DNA from: Flavobacterium sp. ASW18X
GTDB lineage: Bacteria; Bacteroidota; Bacteroidia; Flavobacteriales; Flavobacteriaceae
NCBI RefSeq assembly: GCF_005144745.1
Contig: NZ_SWKK01000011.1
Span: forward strand, 124,001-188,000
Direction: 5' to 3'
Length of the DNA: 64,000 bases
Below the pieces are notes generated by a model. That model did no database searches and was not told the origin of the DNA. It saw only the letters and a list, made by a program, of their open reading frames with translations. The position numbers were made by a program, and so were the translations under genes. Within the stretch, counting starts at the first letter, position 1; the number at the start of each line of letters is the position of its first letter. Shown here in pieces: positions 43,342-50,832 of this stretch.

Positions 43342-44419
43342 AATTTTATTACTCCTATTGGTAGCAGCACCGCCTAGCGCTAAGGCTGCTCCAAATGATA
43401 CACATTGGAGCGGTAAACACACCAAAGAAAAAACCATAAAAAAGGAATTCACTGTAAATATGGATGCCTTACTGCGGGTAAAAAATAGCTACGGTAATTT
43501 AAACATCTCTTCTTGGGACCAAAACAAAGTTTTAATAGAAGTACATATTAAAACCAATGGCAATGATGAAGAACGTGTAAAAGAGCGTTTGGCAGAAATA
43601 GATGTAGATTTTGAAAACACCGCTAGCATGGTTTCTGCTATTACCAGATTCACAGAAAAGAAAAGCAGTTGGGGATGGAACTGGGGTGGCAAACACAATG
43701 TGAACGTACAAGTGAACTACACCATAAAAGTACCCGTAAAAAACAGTGTAAATCTAGGCAATGACTATGGTTCTATTTTTTTAGATAGAATTGATGGGCA
43801 TGCCAAAATTAGTTGCGACTACGGTAAAATGGAAATTGGGGAATTAAGAGGTAGAAATAATGAATTGCGATTTGATTACACTTCTAAATCCACCTTTGAG
43901 TACGTAAACAGTGCTGAAATTTTTGCCAACTATTCTGGTTTTACTATAGAAAAAGCAGGTAACCTTATCATAAGAGCAGATTACACCCACTCCAACATAG
44001 AAAAAATGGAGCATCTAGATTATGTTAGTGATTACGGTTCTATAGATGTTGGTTACGCCAAAAATGTACAAGGCAGAGGCAGTTACATAAGTGTAAAACT
44101 TGGCGATGTAGAAGGTAATGTGGATATCAATGCAGATTACGGTTCTGTAAAGATTAATAGAATGATGCCGAATGCTGGTAATATTGACATCAACTCAGAT
44201 TACACAGGAATAAAAATTGGATATGATTCTGATTATCAATTTACTTTTGAAATCAATACCGAATACGCTGGGGTCAGTGGTAAGGAAGATTTTGAAATTA
44301 ATTACAGTAATGAAAAATCTACAAGAAAATATTATAAAGGTTTTCACGGTAATGCTAATGCACCCAATACCGTAACTATAAATAGCGAATATGGAGGCAT
44401 ATCTTTCTTTAATAACTAA
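43319..44419 (+). CDS. Exported beta-repeat protein, DUF4097-like
   Basis: A 366-residue protein with a signal peptide (residues 1-24, ending PPSAKA). The rest is a repetitive parallel beta-strand protein: short motifs with Gly-Ser and Asp-Tyr-Gly (NDYGSIF, CDYGKME, SDYGSID, ADYGSVK, SEYGGIS) recur every 20-40 residues, as in a beta-helix. This resembles DUF4097 adhesin-like proteins. It probably acts in the periplasm or on the surface. Two adjacent ATG codons open the gene; either may be used. Confidence 0.85.
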   Translation: MMRTLLFKILLLLLVAAPPSAKAAPNDTHWSGKHTKEKTIKKEFTVNMDALLRVKNSYGNLNISSWDQNKVLIEVHIKTNGNDEERVKERLAEIDVDFENTASMVSAITRFTEKKSSWGWNWGGKHNVNVQVNYTIKVPVKNSVNLGNDYGSIFLDRIDGHAKISCDYGKMEIGELRGRNNELRFDYTSKSTFEYVNSAEIFANYSGFTIEKAGNLIIRADYTHSNIEKMEHLDYVSDYGSIDVGYAKNVQGRGSYISVKLGDVEGNVDINADYGSVKINRMMPNAGNIDINSDYTGIKIGYDSDYQFTFEINTEYAGVSGKEDFEINYSNEKSTRKYYKGFHGNANAPNTVTINSEYGGISFFNN

Positions 44420-44438
44420 CAATCAAAAAACGAACATC

Positions 44439-45164
44439 ATGAAAAACGGAATTTTAGTAGCACTAACTTGTATTTTCACCTTAAGCGCACACGCCCAATG
44501 GGGAAAACGAATAAAAGGAAACGGAAACGTAGTAACCTTGGAACGCTCTGTAAATGATTATGACGGAATAGCTATTAGCGGCTGGTTCGATGTTAAATTG
44601 GTAAGCGGCAGTGAGGGCGAATTAACCTTAAAAGGCGAAGAAAACTTATTAGACTATATCATTACAGAGGTAGACAATGGGGTGCTTGTAATTAAAACAG
44701 AAAAAGGAGTAAATCTAAAACCTTCTAGCTACAAAAACGGTATTTACATCACAGTTCCTGTAGAAGAAATAGATGAATTGAGTTTATCTGGTTCTGGAGA
44801 TATCACCAGCAGTACTACCCTTAAAGGCGCTAGTTTAGAAACACGTGTATCTGGCTCTGGAGACGTGACCTTAGATGTAGATGTTAATCATTTAGAAGCA
44901 AGATTATCCGGCTCTGGAGATATGGACTTAAGTGGGCAAGCTTCTAACTTTGAGGTGACTATTTCTGGATCTGGGGACATTTCCGCATATGATTTAACTG
45001 CGAAAAATGTAGAGGCTACCGTTTCTGGCTCTGCAGATATAGAAATCACTGTAGAAAAAAGTTTAAATGCTAGAGTTTCTGGTTCTGGCAACATTACATA
45101 TAAGGGCAATCCTTCTAAAGTAAAAAGCAAAAGCTCTGGTTCTGGAGATGTAAGTAGGGCGTAA
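44439..45164 (+). CDS. Exported GIN domain protein (DUF2807)
   Basis: A 241-residue protein with a signal peptide (MKNGILVALTCIFTLSAHAQ) and a DUF2807 body. The N-terminal half has FDVKLVSGSEGELTLKG, the family's usual opening. The C-terminal half has seven SGSGD-like repeats spaced 18-21 residues (two vary: SGSAD, SGSGN), one per rung of a predicted beta-helix. The ATG at 44439 gives a clean signal peptide and leaves 19 bases after the previous stop; longer frames start inside the previous gene. Function unknown; adhesin-like or cell-envelope stress roles are guesses. Confidence 0.88.
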   Translation: MKNGILVALTCIFTLSAHAQWGKRIKGNGNVVTLERSVNDYDGIAISGWFDVKLVSGSEGELTLKGEENLLDYIITEVDNGVLVIKTEKGVNLKPSSYKNGIYITVPVEEIDELSLSGSGDITSSTTLKGASLETRVSGSGDVTLDVDVNHLEARLSGSGDMDLSGQASNFEVTISGSGDISAYDLTAKNVEATVSGSADIEITVEKSLNARVSGSGNITYKGNPSKVKSKSSGSGDVSRA

Positions 45165-45187: not shown

Positions 45188-45230
45188 TGATTTACAACTT
45201 AAAACCTATGGCGTTCCTTGTTGTAAATCA
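45188..45230. terminator. 11-base perfect inverted repeat between convergent genes
   Basis: TGATTTACAAC (45188-45198) and GTTGTAAATCA (45220-45230) are perfect inverse copies with a 21-base loop. The right arm lies inside the last codons of the spermidine-synthase-like gene. It is the only hairpin between these convergent genes and may terminate both, though it is AT-rich and lacks a strong T-run. Confidence 0.45.
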
Positions 45231-46732
45231 GTTTTCCATTTTGCCCAATCATCTAAATAATAATTTAAGATTACTGGGCTATCCATGGTATTCACCTTAG
45301 TTTCTACAATCTCTAAATCTGTGGGTAAATTAAACATATTACCATATTGCGTGGCAGTTAAAAATTTATTGGTTTTAGGGAATTTGCCTGGTACGCTTTG
45401 TAGTGGTAAGTCATGGTCTGCAGCCATAACAAAACCCCAATCACCAAAAGATGGAATATAGGTATGGTAAGCATGGGTGGTTTTAAAAACCTCTTTTAAG
45501 GTAGTATTAATGCAACTAAAAACCGTATTGGAAAAGTAAATTTCTCCTGCCTGTGTAACAAACACTCCATTTTTAGAAAGTTTTGATTTTGCAAGAAGAA
45601 AAAATTGCCTGCTGTAGAGCCTCGCAATAGCTTCATTCACAGGATCTGGTAAATCTGCTATGACTACGTCATAAACTTCTGTGGTATTTGCTAAATAACT
45701 AAAAGCATCTGCTGTAATCAGATTTACCTTAGCATGCACAGCAGCATTTTGGTTTATCTTTTTAAATATGGGATGCTCTTTTGCTAAATAAAACATAGTA
45801 CTATCAATATCTACCACATCTATGCTTTCTACTGTTGCATGCTTAAGAACTTCTCTACTAGCTAAATTTTCGCCCCCACCTAATATTAATATTTTTTTTG
45901 GGTTTTCGTGAGCCCCTATAGGAATGTGTACTAATGACTCGTGATAGCGGTGCTCATCTAAAGAAGAAAATTGAATAACTCTATTTAAATACAAACGTAC
46001 ATCTTCTAGTTTTTTTGTCACTACTATTTTTTGATAAGGCGTTTGCTCATTTAAAACAATAGGACTCTTGTAAATAGCATTATCCCATACCTTTAACAAT
46101 CTACCTCCACAACCTACTAATACCAATAACCCAATAAGAGTAGTAATACCAAAGGCGAAAGTTTTCTTAGAAAAGTCTAAAAATTTAAAACTGATGACTA
46201 AACCCAACACAATATTGAGAATCCCAAAGATGAGCGACGAATAATACAACCCCACAAAAGGCAATAGAATAAATGGAAAAATTAGCGTTGCCAATAGGCC
46301 ACCTATGTAATCTAAAGACAATACGTTAGACAAATCGTTCTTTACGTTTACCCCATCAAAAGCAAATGTTAGCAACGGCACTTCCATGCCGGTGAGTAGG
46401 CCAATTACAAATATGATTACCAAACAAAGAATTTGCAAGGTTAGCGGACTTACCTGTACAAACAAAAAATAAAGCAAGGGAACAGAAATACCTCCTATAA
46501 ATCCCAATAAAAATTCAACATGCACAAAAAACCGAATAGGTAATTTAGAAAGGTATTTAGATAAAAAAGCGCCAATCCCCATGGAAAATAAATAAACACC
46601 TATAATTATGCTAAACTGCCTTACCCCATCACCTAAAAAATAGGTCGCCGTTGTACTCACCAAAAGTTCATAAATTATAGAGCACAATCCTGCAATAAAT
46701 ACGGCAATGGATAAAAGAATTTTGTTTCTCAT
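45206..46732 (-). CDS. Membrane-embedded spermidine-synthase-like protein
   Basis: A 508-residue protein with about seven transmembrane helices (residues 1-215) and a C-terminal Rossmann domain of the aminopropyltransferase family (about 225-480). YHESLVHIP and IADLPDP match spermidine synthases, but the SAM-type loop GGGDG is GGGENLASREVLKH here, with Glu and no second Gly pair. It may make a polyamine at the membrane or act on a different substrate. It is divergent from the YgiB-like gene, 49 bases apart, and close to speD and the ATP-grasp gene. Confidence 0.88.
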   Translation of the reverse strand: MRNKILLSIAVFIAGLCSIIYELLVSTTATYFLGDGVRQFSIIIGVYLFSMGIGAFLSKYLSKLPIRFFVHVEFLLGFIGGISVPLLYFLFVQVSPLTLQILCLVIIFVIGLLTGMEVPLLTFAFDGVNVKNDLSNVLSLDYIGGLLATLIFPFILLPFVGLYYSSLIFGILNIVLGLVISFKFLDFSKKTFAFGITTLIGLLVLVGCGGRLLKVWDNAIYKSPIVLNEQTPYQKIVVTKKLEDVRLYLNRVIQFSSLDEHRYHESLVHIPIGAHENPKKILILGGGENLASREVLKHATVESIDVVDIDSTMFYLAKEHPIFKKINQNAAVHAKVNLITADAFSYLANTTEVYDVVIADLPDPVNEAIARLYSRQFFLLAKSKLSKNGVFVTQAGEIYFSNTVFSCINTTLKEVFKTTHAYHTYIPSFGDWGFVMAADHDLPLQSVPGKFPKTNKFLTATQYGNMFNLPTDLEIVETKVNTMDSPVILNYYLDDWAKWKTDLQQGTP

Positions 46733-46750
46733 AAAATTTAGCTAGGTTTG
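46721..46750 (+). promoter_or_regulatory. Promoter of the YgiB-like lipoprotein gene
   Basis: TTTG (46721-46724), an 18-base spacer and TAGGTTTG (46743-46750) closely match the Bacteroidota consensus, 31 bases before the ATG. The -33 element lies at the start of the divergent spermidine-synthase-like gene. Confidence 0.65.
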
Positions 46751-46781
46751 ATAACGTTACGTATAAACAATCCTTTCAAAG

Positions 46782-47339
46782 ATGAATAAAAAAACATTAA
46801 ACGGGCGAGCATTTGGTAGAAAATTGATGCTTGCCAGTACCTTATCTGCGGGTATCATAGCAAGCAGCTGTGGTGGTAATGGCGAGCCAAAGCTTAAAGA
46901 CTTTAAAGAAGAAACCATTTACGAAGCTACGAAAGGTACTATTACAGAGGTAGAAGAAGTTGAGCCAGGCGATGAATACAAAATTATTGACGAGCGCTTA
47001 ATAGATAAGAAAGAAAATTCCATAGCCATTGTTCATACACTAGAAGGAAAGGTAGATACGCTCTCTTTAGCCAAAATAGAAAATAATGAAAGTGAACAGC
47101 GCTACGGTAGAGGATTAAGAAGTGTATTATACTATTCTTTAGCAGCTTCTTATTTTAATAGAAGATTAGGTAATGTAGCACCAAACTCTAGTTACTACAA
47201 GGATGCTACAGCTTATAACAAATCTACCGGGCTACAAAACGAATTAAAGAGTACGGCTACAAGCAGAAAAGTAAAAGTTCCAGGAAGTTCATCTAAAGGT
47301 TATGGGTCAGGAAAATCATTCCGTTCTTTTGGAGGATAA
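46782..47339 (+). CDS. YgiB-like lipoprotein with Gly/Ser-rich tail
   Basis: A 185-residue lipoprotein with a long signal and lipid-attachment Cys at residue 30 (IIASSC). The middle is acidic and polar. The tail is basic and rich in Gly and Ser (SSSKGYGSGKSFRSFGG). E. coli YgiB, which precedes the glutathionylspermidine-synthase-like YgiC, has a comparable tail, so this looks like a YgiB counterpart, though overall similarity is weak. It overlaps the next gene by 38 bases. Confidence 0.8.
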   Translation: MNKKTLNGRAFGRKLMLASTLSAGIIASSCGGNGEPKLKDFKEETIYEATKGTITEVEEVEPGDEYKIIDERLIDKKENSIAIVHTLEGKVDTLSLAKIENNESEQRYGRGLRSVLYYSLAASYFNRRLGNVAPNSSYYKDATAYNKSTGLQNELKSTATSRKVKVPGSSSKGYGSGKSFRSFGG

Positions 47340-48474
47340 TCGTTTTAAAACCATTAAACGATTAAAAAAGAAAGATTTACCACACCAGCTTTATTGGTAC
47401 CTAAAGCAAGATTATTTCTCTGAAGAGCTTTTAGGCCTTTACTGGGAAGAGGTTGATACGTTTAACAAAACAGCTACTGTGGCTTTTGAATTATTTCAAA
47501 GCGCCACACAAAAGGTTATCAATGACCAAAAATTGGGTGATTTTGGTATTCCTAAGTTTTTTTGGGATTGTATACATTACACTTGGGAGCATCGTAAGGA
47601 ACATCCATTTTTATATGGCCGGTTTGATGTCAACGGAGGTTTTGGAAATACAGCTGCAAAGGTGATAGAATTTAATGCAGATACGTGCAGCACGCTACCT
47701 GAAACGATTCTTTGGCAAAAAGCACAATTAAACCTACTTACCGGTGCAAGTCAGTTCAATACACTAGCAGAGGACATAGGACATACTTTAGCATACTTAA
47801 AAACAAAAATACCCCATGACCAACCTTTTATTTTAGGGTCTTCTTTTGGTTATGAGGAAGATGTACTCAATGTTAATGCGATTTTAGACATTGGCTATGA
47901 ACAAGGCTATAAAGTGTTTTATACGCACCTAGAAGATGTTATATTCTCTCATGAGAATGGCATTTTGTATGAGATAAATGGGGAGTACCAAATTGCAGAT
48001 ATATGGTTTAAAATGATACCTTGGGATTGGATGTTTACGGACGAACCAGAATTAGCCAAGGATTTAGCGACCATCATACAAAAGGATTTATGCACGGTAT
48101 TAAATCCGCCAATTACGGCTTTATGGCAAAACAAAAAATTCTTGGCGTACCTTACAGAAAACTACCCCAATGATTGTATTGCCAATACTTATTTAACTCC
48201 AGCAAGGCTTAGTAATTATGTTGCAAAACCAATATTTGGCCGTTTAGGAGAAAATATAGAAATACATACTTCTAAAAAAACCACCTCTAAAGGCGATTAT
48301 GCACATCAAGAAAAGATTCATCAAGAGTACATTCCGTTAGCAAAAGACTCACAAAAATATGCCTACCAAACGGGAGTATTTTATACCCATAAAGCTTCAG
48401 CAATTAATTTAAGAACAGAAGATAACACAATTATTACGGATGATTGTGAGTTTATGACACATTACATTATCTAA
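47302..48474 (+). CDS. Glutathionylspermidine-synthase-like ATP-grasp protein (YgiC-like)
   Basis: A 390-residue member of the glutathionylspermidine synthase family, which forms an amide bond between a peptide carboxylate and an amine using ATP. Blocks VIEFNADTCSTLPETILW, FGYEEDVLNVNAILDIGYEQGY, FKMIPWDW, and VAKPIFGRLGENIEI (ATP-grasp) are clear. The amidase domain of E. coli Gsp is absent, as in YgiC. Flavobacteria are not generally known to use glutathionylspermidine, so the real product is unknown. The ATG lies within the previous gene's tail; the end overlaps speD by 8 bases. Confidence 0.88.
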   Translation: MGQENHSVLLEDNRFKTIKRLKKKDLPHQLYWYLKQDYFSEELLGLYWEEVDTFNKTATVAFELFQSATQKVINDQKLGDFGIPKFFWDCIHYTWEHRKEHPFLYGRFDVNGGFGNTAAKVIEFNADTCSTLPETILWQKAQLNLLTGASQFNTLAEDIGHTLAYLKTKIPHDQPFILGSSFGYEEDVLNVNAILDIGYEQGYKVFYTHLEDVIFSHENGILYEINGEYQIADIWFKMIPWDWMFTDEPELAKDLATIIQKDLCTVLNPPITALWQNKKFLAYLTENYPNDCIANTYLTPARLSNYVAKPIFGRLGENIEIHTSKKTTSKGDYAHQEKIHQEYIPLAKDSQKYAYQTGVFYTHKASAINLRTEDNTIITDDCEFMTHYII

Positions 48475-48841
48475 GAACTTTTTGTACGTTTTTTACCATT
48501 TCTAAACTACCTCTATTTAAAATTGTAGTTTTAACTTGGTTAGATAACAACTCTTTTTTAATAATTTCTGTAACTAAATCCGCATCAAAAGCCTTACAAG
48601 AGAAGACATCTATCGCCGCATAGTTATGCTCTGGCCATGTATGGATGCTTATATGACTTTCTTCTAATAAAATAACTCCGGTTACCCCAACAGGCTCAAA
48701 TTGTTTAAAAGAACCATTTACTTCTTTTAAATCTAAGGTATCTGTAATTACATGCAAAACTCCTTCTACTTTATCTACAAAAGAAATTGCATGTGCATTG
48801 CAGTTATAGGCGTCCCAAGTGGCATGTATACCAATATGCAT
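48467..48841 (-). CDS. speD: S-adenosylmethionine decarboxylase proenzyme, short form
   Basis: A 124-residue pyruvoyl enzyme that makes the aminopropyl donor for spermidine. Self-cleavage is expected before Ser62 in EESHISIHTWPE, with the Ser becoming the pyruvoyl group; His67 and Cys81-type residues further along match the bacterial class 1B. The ATG at 48841 is preferred to a GTG at 48868, which would run into the end of the previous gene. Its end overlaps the ATP-grasp gene by 8 bases on the opposite strand. Confidence 0.94.
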   Translation of the reverse strand: MHIGIHATWDAYNCNAHAISFVDKVEGVLHVITDTLDLKEVNGSFKQFEPVGVTGVILLEESHISIHTWPEHNYAAIDVFSCKAFDADLVTEIIKKELLSNQVKTTILNRGSLEMVKNVQKVLR

Positions 48842-48851
48842 AATTCTTGGA

Positions 48852-49394
48852 TTATTCCGCTCCAGCACTTTGTTGAACCATTTCTATAAATTCTGTAGGA
48901 CTAAGCAGCTTTTTTAAAATAGTGTAGTTTTCTCCAGACTCTACTTGTACCATTTCTGGTAATTTTTCTCTAGGTCCGTAGTCCCAAGTTACTGTATTGA
49001 TAAGTTTATCTACCACATCATAGTTACCCTCAAACTCAATACCCATATAATTGACAGTTTTGGAGCTAAATTTACTTGTCATTTCATAAGAACTATAAAA
49101 TGCATCGCTACCATAATATTCTTCCATCAACAAATATTCGTTCAAGGTAGGGTTTATCATATACAAGGATTGATCAAAGTTATGTTTAACCAAACTATCG
49201 TTCTGTAGTGTTAACTCATGGTCACCTTTACCCATTTCTACCCATACAACTTCGTTAGCAGGTATCTCTACCTCTAAATCATCTAACTTAATAAAAACAG
49301 GTTGATCCGTAGGATTATCTATGGCTAAATCTACATTACTACTGCATGAAGCCAATAAAATACAGATTAATAAAGGAGTTATAATAAATTTCAT
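48852..49394 (-). CDS. Lipoprotein of unknown function
   Basis: A 180-residue lipoprotein with a signal ending LLASC (Cys17). The next part (VDLAIDNPTDQPVFIKLDDLEVEIP) looks like a beta-sandwich domain. No family is recognised with confidence. It lies 10 bases before speD on the same strand and may be part of the polyamine-type unit. Confidence 0.85.
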   Translation of the reverse strand: MKFIITPLLICILLASCSSNVDLAIDNPTDQPVFIKLDDLEVEIPANEVVWVEMGKGDHELTLQNDSLVKHNFDQSLYMINPTLNEYLLMEEYYGSDAFYSSYEMTSKFSSKTVNYMGIEFEGNYDVVDKLINTVTWDYGPREKLPEMVQVESGENYTILKKLLSPTEFIEMVQQSAGAE

Positions 49395-49500: not shown

Positions 49501-50832
49501 TTACTTAGCCCGTTCCACTCTAGCTAATAAAAAAGCCCCTATTAAAAAAAATAAACCCAAAAAAATAGTACTTAAACGCATACCCCCTGTCATTTGCGCA
49601 ATCAAACCGTAAATAAGCGTGCCGATTACAATGCCTATTTTTTCTGATACATCATAAAAACTAAAAAAGGAAGTAGTATCTGTGGTGTCTGGCAAATACT
49701 TAGAGTAAGTGGACCTACTCAACGCTTGTATCCCGCCCATCACTAAGCCTACTAAACCAGCTGCTATGTAAAAATCTAAAGGCGTTATTACAAAATAGGC
49801 ATATACACATAAGCCTAGCCACATTATGTTTATGGTTACTAAGGTCTTTATATTTCCGTACTTTTTAGAACACCAAGCGGTTACGGTTGCTCCTAAAACA
49901 GCAACAATTTGTATTACTAAGATACTGATTATTAGTCCCACGGTTCGCTCTTCATCTGTCCCCCATTGTATCTCTTCTTCACCAAAATAAGTAGCAATAA
50001 GCATTATTGTTTGTACCGCCATACTATATACAAAAAAAGCACCTAAATACCGTTTTAGTTGTGATTGTCCTTGCAGTTGTTTCCAAACAGTTTGCAACTC
50101 CTGAAAACCGTTCAACAATACATTTTTACGCTCACCTTCTTTTTTATAGCCTTTAGGTAGATGTTTAAAAGTATATTGGCTAAATAAAGCCCACCAAAAT
50201 CCCACGGTAATAAAAGAATACTTCATAGCCTTAATTTTGGCGCTATCTCCCCCTATTTCAGAAGCATCTGTAATGCCAAAGAAATCTGGCTTCATTACCA
50301 TTAGCAAATTAAAGAGCAATAAAAGTACGCTACCAATATAGCCTAAGGAAAAACCTTTGGCGCTAATACGGTCTTGTTGTTCTGGAAAGGCAATATCTGG
50401 TAAGTATGAATTATTGATAGCAAAACTTACCCAAAAGCCTACCAACCCAAAGAAGTAACACAAAAGACCTAGATAAATATTTTCTAAAGAAAACCAATAA
50501 AGTCCGGCGCAAGAAATAGCTCCTAAATAACAAAAGAACTTTAAAAAAAAACGCTTATTACCCAAATAATCTGCAATACCAGATATTAATGGTGTTATTA
50601 GTGCAATAAAAACAAATGCAGTTGAGGTTGTATAACTTATTAACGGAGCTCTGGCAATTTCAAAACCAAAAACCGAAACTTTTTCTATACCTGCAGTTCT
50701 AAATAATGCTCCATAAAAAATAGGAAATACAGCAGAAGAGATTACAAGACTATAGACCGAATTTGCCCAGTCATAAAAAGCCCAGGCATTCAGGAGTTTT
50801 TTTTCTCCTTTGAGCGCAAATGTTTGTGTCAT
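49501..50832 (-). CDS. MFS transporter, UMF1/Atg22-like
   Basis: A 443-residue integral membrane protein with about 12 helices. The opening WAFYDWANSVYSLVISSAVFP and GLVGFWVSFAINNSYLPDIA and GGIQALSRSTYSKYLPD fit the UMF1 (Atg22-like) group. Members are thought to move amino acids or other small molecules; the substrate is unknown here. It has no clear partner; the terminator that follows it upstream belongs to the M48 gene. Confidence 0.9.
   Translation of the reverse strand: MTQTFALKGEKKLLNAWAFYDWANSVYSLVISSAVFPIFYGALFRTAGIEKVSVFGFEIARAPLISYTTSTAFVFIALITPLISGIADYLGNKRFFLKFFCYLGAISCAGLYWFSLENIYLGLLCYFFGLVGFWVSFAINNSYLPDIAFPEQQDRISAKGFSLGYIGSVLLLLFNLLMVMKPDFFGITDASEIGGDSAKIKAMKYSFITVGFWWALFSQYTFKHLPKGYKKEGERKNVLLNGFQELQTVWKQLQGQSQLKRYLGAFFVYSMAVQTIMLIATYFGEEEIQWGTDEERTVGLIISILVIQIVAVLGATVTAWCSKKYGNIKTLVTINIMWLGLCVYAYFVITPLDFYIAAGLVGLVMGGIQALSRSTYSKYLPDTTDTTSFFSFYDVSEKIGIVIGTLIYGLIAQMTGGMRLSTIFLGLFFLIGAFLLARVERAK

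Follow-up and report, generated by a model that had tools for sequence, protein, structure and literature searches.

The window examined here is a 64,000 nucleotide (nt) stretch of contig NZ_SWKK01000011.1 of Flavobacterium sp. ASW18X, and all coordinates are window positions. Five of its genes, which on sequence evidence are a real, unitary cassette, encode a SpeE-like membrane polyamine aminopropyltransferase (membrane SpeE), a lipoprotein (lipoprotein A), an ATP-grasp amide ligase, an S-adenosylmethionine (AdoMet) decarboxylase proenzyme (SpeD) and a second lipoprotein (lipoprotein B), and together appear to form a system that attaches a polyamine to the C-terminal tail of lipoprotein A. 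The genes lie where an initial annotation of the DNA had put them, and three of them belong to clear families (PF01564, PF03738 and PF02675).

The polyamine genes were identified by profile scans. Membrane SpeE has a hydrophobic N-terminal half, whose membrane spans were judged by eye, and a C-terminal spermine/spermidine synthase domain at residues 260-437. It scored 143.9 bits against PF01564 (cut-off 22.9) and 526.3 bits against NF002956 (cut-off 472) over residues 3-499, nearly its full length, and is assigned as an aminopropyltransferase. SpeD gave 105.1 bits against PF02675 (cut-off 25) and 104.3 bits against TIGR03330 (cut-off 75.65), the latter assigning it to the bacterial SpeD type, and its processing region ESHISIHTWPE was aligned to 2iii. 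The true start of SpeD is probably the ATG at about 48841 (MHIGIHATWD) rather than the GTG at 48868, because the relatives, read by eye, begin near there. The two genes were the only PF02675 and PF01564 matches found in the genome. The initial annotation's statement that the cluster has no glutathione context held as far as tested: neither gamma-glutamylcysteine ligase family, GCS2 (PF04107) or Glu_cys_ligase (PF04262), had a match in the genome, which is 99.6% complete. Elsewhere, on different contigs, PF02955 had two matches of 71.7 and 69.3 bits, which may represent ATP-grasp enzymes of another kind.

The ligase scored 235.9 bits against PF03738 (GSP_synth, cut-off 29.3), placing it within that family. 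The closest solved structures by sequence are Escherichia coli YjfC (7uk6) and YgiC (7uk8), followed by trypanothione synthetase and glutathionylspermidine synthetase/amidase (Gss). Residues R107, D109, E123, N125, K278, K309, R314 and R371 were invariant in 16 aligned ligases and align with R316, D318, E330, N332, K498, K533, R538 and R598 of E. coli Gss, which we take to have catalytic roles; Thr131 aligns with Gss Cys338. In the ligase tree the window protein belonged to a Bacteroidota clade of 15 rows, adjacent to one of 20 rows that held YgiC, YjfC and Gss, the last long-branched and unsure in position. By sequence the enzyme is divergent but belongs to a known kind, sharing the family residues of YgiC and YjfC at 23-24% identity from a separate clade, and the invariant residues of Gss at 21% identity without the Gss amidase half. 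A Gss-type enzyme was considered and rejected, with 70.3 bits against the equivalog NF007801 (cut-off 882) and a length of 390 residues with no fused amidase half; finding no gamma-glutamylcysteine ligase fits this.

Lipoprotein A carries a signal peptide, judged by eye. Its Cys30 was invariant in 12 aligned sequences, as were tail residues G173, G175, S179, R181, S182, G184 and G185. The tail is disordered and basic (...KGYG-SGKSFRSFGG), with KGYG 10 residues from the end. The structural model had a mean predicted local distance difference test score (pLDDT) of 67, with a more confident middle and values below 50 for residues 1-38 and 171-185. Like the proteins beside YgiC and YjfC, lipoprotein A is a ligase-adjacent anchored protein with a Gly/Ser/Arg tail and a small last residue (...KGYGSGKSFRSFGG). 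The initial annotation had called it YgiB-like, a likeness that extends to layout only, as no Pfam family, DUF1190 (PF06693) included, matched lipoprotein A at E<=0.01 while YgiB and YjfM match DUF1190.

Lipoprotein B is strongly conserved, with VDLAIDNPT and WDYGPRE invariant in 12 sequences. Neither lipoprotein matched any of the families searched, and a fold search with models of both gave no PDB match at E<=0.001. The basic Gly/Ser-rich tail that had been ascribed to a cassette lipoprotein is present on A; the end of B is acidic. With this end, no tail motif and no copy seen in the Apibacter locus L017, B was rejected as the acceptor. A broader group of genome-encoded proteins ending in [FY]GG was also rejected, the pattern occurring at 54 sites against 77 for a backwards control. 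Reading 30 of the 54 sites (lipoprotein A's own not among them) revealed one open reading frame (ORF) of at least 100 residues with such an ending, and that end was not basic.

Table 1. Features of the cassette and its flanks, in window positions.
Feature	Position	Strand	Basis
Membrane polyamine aminopropyltransferase (SpeE-like)	45206..46732	-	PF01564 and NF002956 profiles
Lipoprotein A, 185 residues, proposed acceptor	46782..47339	+	lipobox-like sequence, invariant Cys30, tail
Cys30 codon in the lipobox-like IIASSC of lipoprotein A	46869..46871	+	lipobox by eye
C-terminal tail of lipoprotein A, SSKGYGSGKSFRSFGG: KGYG motif, 10 residues, free C-terminal Gly-Gly	47289..47336	+	alignment
ATP-grasp amide ligase, 390 residues	47302..48474	+	PF03738 profile
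S-adenosylmethionine decarboxylase proenzyme (SpeD)	48467..48868	-	PF02675, TIGR03330
Lipoprotein B, beta-rich model, acidic C-terminus	48852..49394	-	sequence, alignment, model
Left flank: DUF2807 gene, adjoining ATG22 at the empty site	44391..45164	+	profile scan, congener comparison
Right flank: ATG22/MFS-type transporter gene	49501..50832	-	profile scan, congener comparison

Tails of the same type were found beside other cellular ligases of the family. The cellular set comprised 69 ligases: that of the window, its 16 nearest relatives, two from E. coli, 32 from genome scans of the phylum and host family, and 18 from plasmids, chosen by the author out of 158 records. L055 and L057 seem to repeat L008 and L010. 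Outside the set stood L058-L061 (below the PF03738 cut-off), two above-threshold matches of the phylum scan, G331 (identical with L111) and G185, and E. coli Gss. Of the 69 ligases, 61 could be assigned a tail protein and three more gained one through wider flanks (L031 by L091, L043 by L105 and L050 by L101), giving 64; ORFs that passed the tail rule in L099 and L075 were regarded as chance and left uncounted. The shared tail consists of [RK]G(G)[FY]G, about 10 residues and a small last residue, often as Gly-Gly, on diverse and mostly membrane-anchored proteins. All 16 nearest relatives end in (F/Y)GG, and E. coli YgiB (...SSRSMGG) and YjfM (...RGHWGG) are each encoded directly upstream of a gene that RefSeq names peptide--spermidine ligase. 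Loci with tails occurred in Bacteroidota, Pseudomonadota, Actinomycetota (L070), Deinococcota (L071), Bacillota (L076, L078) and Cyanobacteriota (L077). Nine companions besides that of the window were scanned: YgiB and YjfM matched DUF1190 and the other seven had no significant Pfam family, and the tail therefore sits on diverse proteins, although remote kinship is still possible.

The tail ends were compared with control sequences after clustering of the ligases at 50% identity. This gave 27 clusters, 23 of which had a tail protein; the last residue was Gly in 15, Ser in six and Ala in two, one of these three in 23/23, and the end was Gly-Gly in 14/23. Among 250 control ORFs of the same loci, Gly-Gly ended none, Gly 11 and Gly, Ser or Ala 44. 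Relative to the composition of the tails themselves, terminal Gly was found in 15 against 4.8 expected (P=3e-6) and Gly-Gly in 14 against 0.9 (P=1.5e-15). When position alone was used, with no choice by hand, the upstream ORF ended in Gly, Ser or Ala at 44 of 55 loci (one of these, L041, being a DUF350 gene by chance) and in Gly-Gly at 33; the tail gene lay downstream in 7 of the 11 failures. The motif was 9-12 residues from the end in 28/43 cellular tails and exactly 10 in 19/43, counts in which the close relatives of the window weigh heavily.

Some tail proteins differ in kind from lipoprotein A. In L041, L042, L044, L046 and L048, which form one branch of the phylum, the tail is carried by a protein of about 460 residues starting with (S/T)RREAN, which we liken to a twin-arginine translocation (Tat) motif; the L042 copy had no Pfam match. 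A DUF350 protein lies near the tail protein in L041. The tail protein of a Pseudarthrobacter plasmid (L070, 2501-2998) is annotated as a tRNA-dihydrouridine synthase, probably a misannotation, and a Roseomonas plasmid (L074, 2926-6697) carries a tandem pair of PF03738-type ligase genes, after which come a single DUF350 and a single DUF1190 tail protein.

Phage loci were examined only after the cellular pattern had been seen. Seven named loci were taken from 136 records matched by YgiC together with the record of Achromobacter phage Motura, and six of the seven encode a small tailed protein that has a lipobox-like sequence and is adjacent to the ligase or one gene from it. The tail of Aeromonas phage 25 is ...SSGGFGKSGGFGSSGG and that of Motura ...VRGGFGSTGSSFSAGG; no tail protein was present in the 4.5 kb read of phage DSS3_VP1 (L146). 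In Motura (L151, 1168-3993) a homospermidine synthase, the tail lipoprotein and the ligase are encoded by consecutive genes, shortly followed by a small membrane protein whose end is DUF350-like by eye. A nicotinamide phosphoribosyltransferase gene is close to the ligase gene in both DSS3_VP1 and SYP (L150).

A larger test used 79 IMG/VR loci, three of them the same named phages (L146, L147 and L151 recur as L204, L153 and L179). A rule set before the run called for a last residue of Gly, Ser or Ala, at least seven Gly or Ser in the last 16 residues and a position within 700 nt. It was passed at 58/79 loci, compared with 10/591 other co-directional ORFs. Together with a motif search of the whole loci, and less one chance ORF (L184), this placed a tail protein on 74 of the 79 contigs. 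The 74 tails represent 62 distinct sequences, ending in Gly (30), Ser (20), Ala (9) or Glu (3), and of the 55 distinct tails that bear the motif, 41 have it 9-12 residues before the end. In a further viral scan 67 of 79 newly named loci repeated earlier ligases; the 12 extra contigs, kept outside the main counts, had a tail-like protein in eight cases, including L258, which ends GGE, and L304, which has no motif. A viral scan with a Bacillus plasmid ligase as query gave no viral relatives.

The behaviour of the cassette was examined in congeners and relatives. The flanking DUF2807 and ATG22 genes abut in eight of the nine congeners read for the empty site (of ten), and the 1.5 kb read in each of the nine contained none of the five cassette genes. 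The 16 nearest named loci, defined by ligase identity of 47-66% and read by eye for gene content, contained SpeD in 16 cases, membrane SpeE in 15 (the contig start cuts the locus in L014) and lipoprotein B in 15, L017 being the one in which it was not seen. Membrane SpeE, a lipoprotein A-like protein, ligase and SpeD also occur together in L097 and L098, from another family of the same class, and in Maribacter and Cellulophaga (L004-L009) the cassette, read by eye, precedes the same ATG22 and M48 genes. From the empty site and these flanks the five genes seem to be gained and lost together, and recurrence in relatives with an empty site in congeners is more than chance. In the host family, the Flavobacteriaceae to judge from the nearest ligase loci, such ligases are rare, with scores above the cut-off in 4/397 genomes, and the ligase family was found in 32/395 across the phylum, its own genome included in each count. 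Promoter-like and terminator-like sites fell under the shuffled mean. A defence system was rejected, the single pointer being a mad2 similarity of the aminopropyltransferase at 44.8 bits.

Taken together, the comparisons make it fairly probable that the cassette is a polyamine-to-lipoprotein ligation system, in which the ligase would couple a polyamine to the carboxylate at the C-terminus of lipoprotein A before export. SpeD would produce decarboxylated AdoMet, which membrane SpeE would turn into a polyamine, probably spermidine. The ligase would activate the carboxylate of the C-terminal Gly with ATP, as an acyl phosphate, and join it to an amine of the polyamine, giving an amide, much as Gss acts on the C-terminal glycine of glutathione. 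Recognition would be of KGYG (elsewhere RGGFG) about 10 residues upstream of the C-terminus; the near-fixed distance suggests that the ligase could bind the motif and so place the end in the active site. Modification would take place in the cytoplasm, ahead of export of the tail, which leaves last, because lipoprotein A has a signal peptide and the ligase, judged by eye, has none; the Tat-like start of the 460-residue tail proteins would likewise fit export after modification. The product would be a lipid-anchored envelope protein with a polycationic C-terminus. The comparative evidence that the ligase modifies the tail of lipoprotein A is strong, as the tail travels with the ligase across phyla and phages with narrow spacing and a mostly small last residue. 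This gives strong support to the tail as acceptor, as initially proposed, with the change that the site is likely to be the C-terminal carboxylate and not the basic side chains; the observation behind that proposal was confirmed and its interpretation partly supported.

Several results weigh against this interpretation. The companions of 19 of the 61 cellular ligases were placed by hand, since gene order or gene calling differed, and partly after tails had been seen; neither the control comparison nor the P values take shared descent into account. The search gave no tail protein for five of the 69 cellular ligases (L032, L039, L047, L075 and L040, the last at a contig end), in the wider flanks of a seventieth ligase outside the set (L111), on five of the 79 viral contigs (L170 and L174, both incomplete, L184, L204 and L221) or on four of the 12 extra contigs (L287, incomplete, and L305-L307, partial ligase matches). 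The motif expression fails for 12/55 distinct cellular and 7/62 distinct viral tails, and YgiB is an outlier with 23 residues after the motif instead of about 10. The small last residue is not an absolute rule because one cellular tail ends in Leu (L044) and four viral tails end in Glu (L158, L159 and L258 as GGE, L201 as VGE). A shared tail, moreover, speaks for linkage rather than catalysis, and the amine could differ from a polyamine.

This last point leads to the alternative that the ligase uses the tail carboxylate with another amine, of peptidoglycan, an amino-lipid or a protein lysine, to give a cross-linked lipoprotein, with SpeD and SpeE serving separate polyamine needs. Gly-Gly ends suit acyl transfer generally, and 46 of 48 loci outside Flavobacteriaceae were without a window-like SpeD or SpeE, although plasmid flanks covered 3 kb only and the search lacked the power to recover even the ligase in 13. 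In the window, however, the only SpeD and membrane SpeE found in the genome lie within the cassette, they recur in another family of the class, and a homospermidine synthase adjoins the ligase-tail pair in Motura. E. coli YgiC and YjfC, in addition, reportedly have peptide-spermidine ligase activity, going by the title of a 2023 paper by Pederick et al., and another amine is accordingly considered unlikely.

A second alternative is a free peptide-polyamine metabolite resembling glutathionylspermidine, with the tailed lipoprotein as binding partner or sensor and not as substrate. Gss, which has been studied more than any other relative, works on free glutathione, and the 2023 title suggests that peptides may be accepted. 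The narrow spacing between motif and C-terminus and the bias in terminal residue (described above for the clustered tails) indicate, by contrast, that the chain end is the thing recognised, which leaves this alternative with a slim chance. Ordinary clustering of a polyamine operon, with the tail as low-complexity drift conserved partly through the 38 nt by which the ligase frame overlaps the lipoprotein A gene, is very improbable, for although the frames do overlap in the window and in its relatives, E. coli YgiB and many loci of plasmids and viruses have the same tail type with no overlap, and such tails are rare in control ORFs (10/591).

The ligation of a polyamine to lipoprotein A would matter beyond this locus. 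The spaced C-terminal tail shared by proteins next to the ligase, among phages as well as several phyla of bacteria, points to one particular acceptor and to one group on it. If correct, the interpretation describes a protein modification that places a polycation on envelope proteins, and would explain a phage auxiliary gene currently labelled glutathionylspermidine synthase. A broader and rather doubtful extension is that PF03738 ligases and RGGFG-tailed anchored proteins form a general C-terminal polyamination tagging system of bacteria and phages, with a transferable tail on diverse proteins, some perhaps Tat-exported; membrane SpeE may then lengthen the attached polyamine in place to give a lipid-anchored long-chain polyamine, and phages may recharge the host envelope with the two-gene form.

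The window was finally compared with known systems. As in the E. coli YgiB-YgiC and YjfM-YjfC pairs, a PF03738 ligase is directly beside a membrane-anchored protein with a Gly-Gly end and an RGG(F/Y)G-type motif, but the 18 kb examined at the E. coli pairs contained no speD or speE. The initial annotation had treated polyamine attachment to proteins or peptides as an unproven idea, which is outdated as to activity in view of the 2023 title and the RefSeq product names of YgiC and YjfC; the novelty of the acceptor proposed here depends on whether Pederick et al. used YgiB or YjfM peptides. Amidoligases were reportedly treated by Iyer et al. in 2009, and Li et al. are said to have described, in 2019 and by title, a polyamine-independent role of AdoMet decarboxylase. 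No paper among the matches listed named the tail as acceptor, subscription journals being mostly outside the search.

YgiC has been described as lacking glutathionylspermidine synthase activity (Sui et al. 2012, as cited in PMC12506659). Operons that combine ATP-grasp ligases with DUF1190, DUF350, PspA (as PspA/CesT-Tir operons) and AdoMet decarboxylase are described in the accessible part of Ravi et al. 2024 (PMC11237479), together with another operon group containing a membrane-fused spermine synthase and a novel lipoprotein; that part makes no mention of C-terminal tails. Like the PspA-type operons, so far as that portion describes them, the window groups an ATP-grasp ligase, a lipoprotein and polyamine genes; unlike them, it unites SpeD, SpeE, ligase and tail lipoprotein in one cassette, and no PspA, DUF350 or DUF2491 neighbour was present among the nine window genes scanned. 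In phages, PHROG 6215 ('glutathionylspermidine synthase') and phrog_3739 (unknown function) resemble the window in pairing a ligase with a YgiB-like tail lipoprotein. The two are catalogued apart, and no literature among the matches listed linked them. A 'YgiB-like lipoprotein' was noted in phage Moon (PMC4319498).

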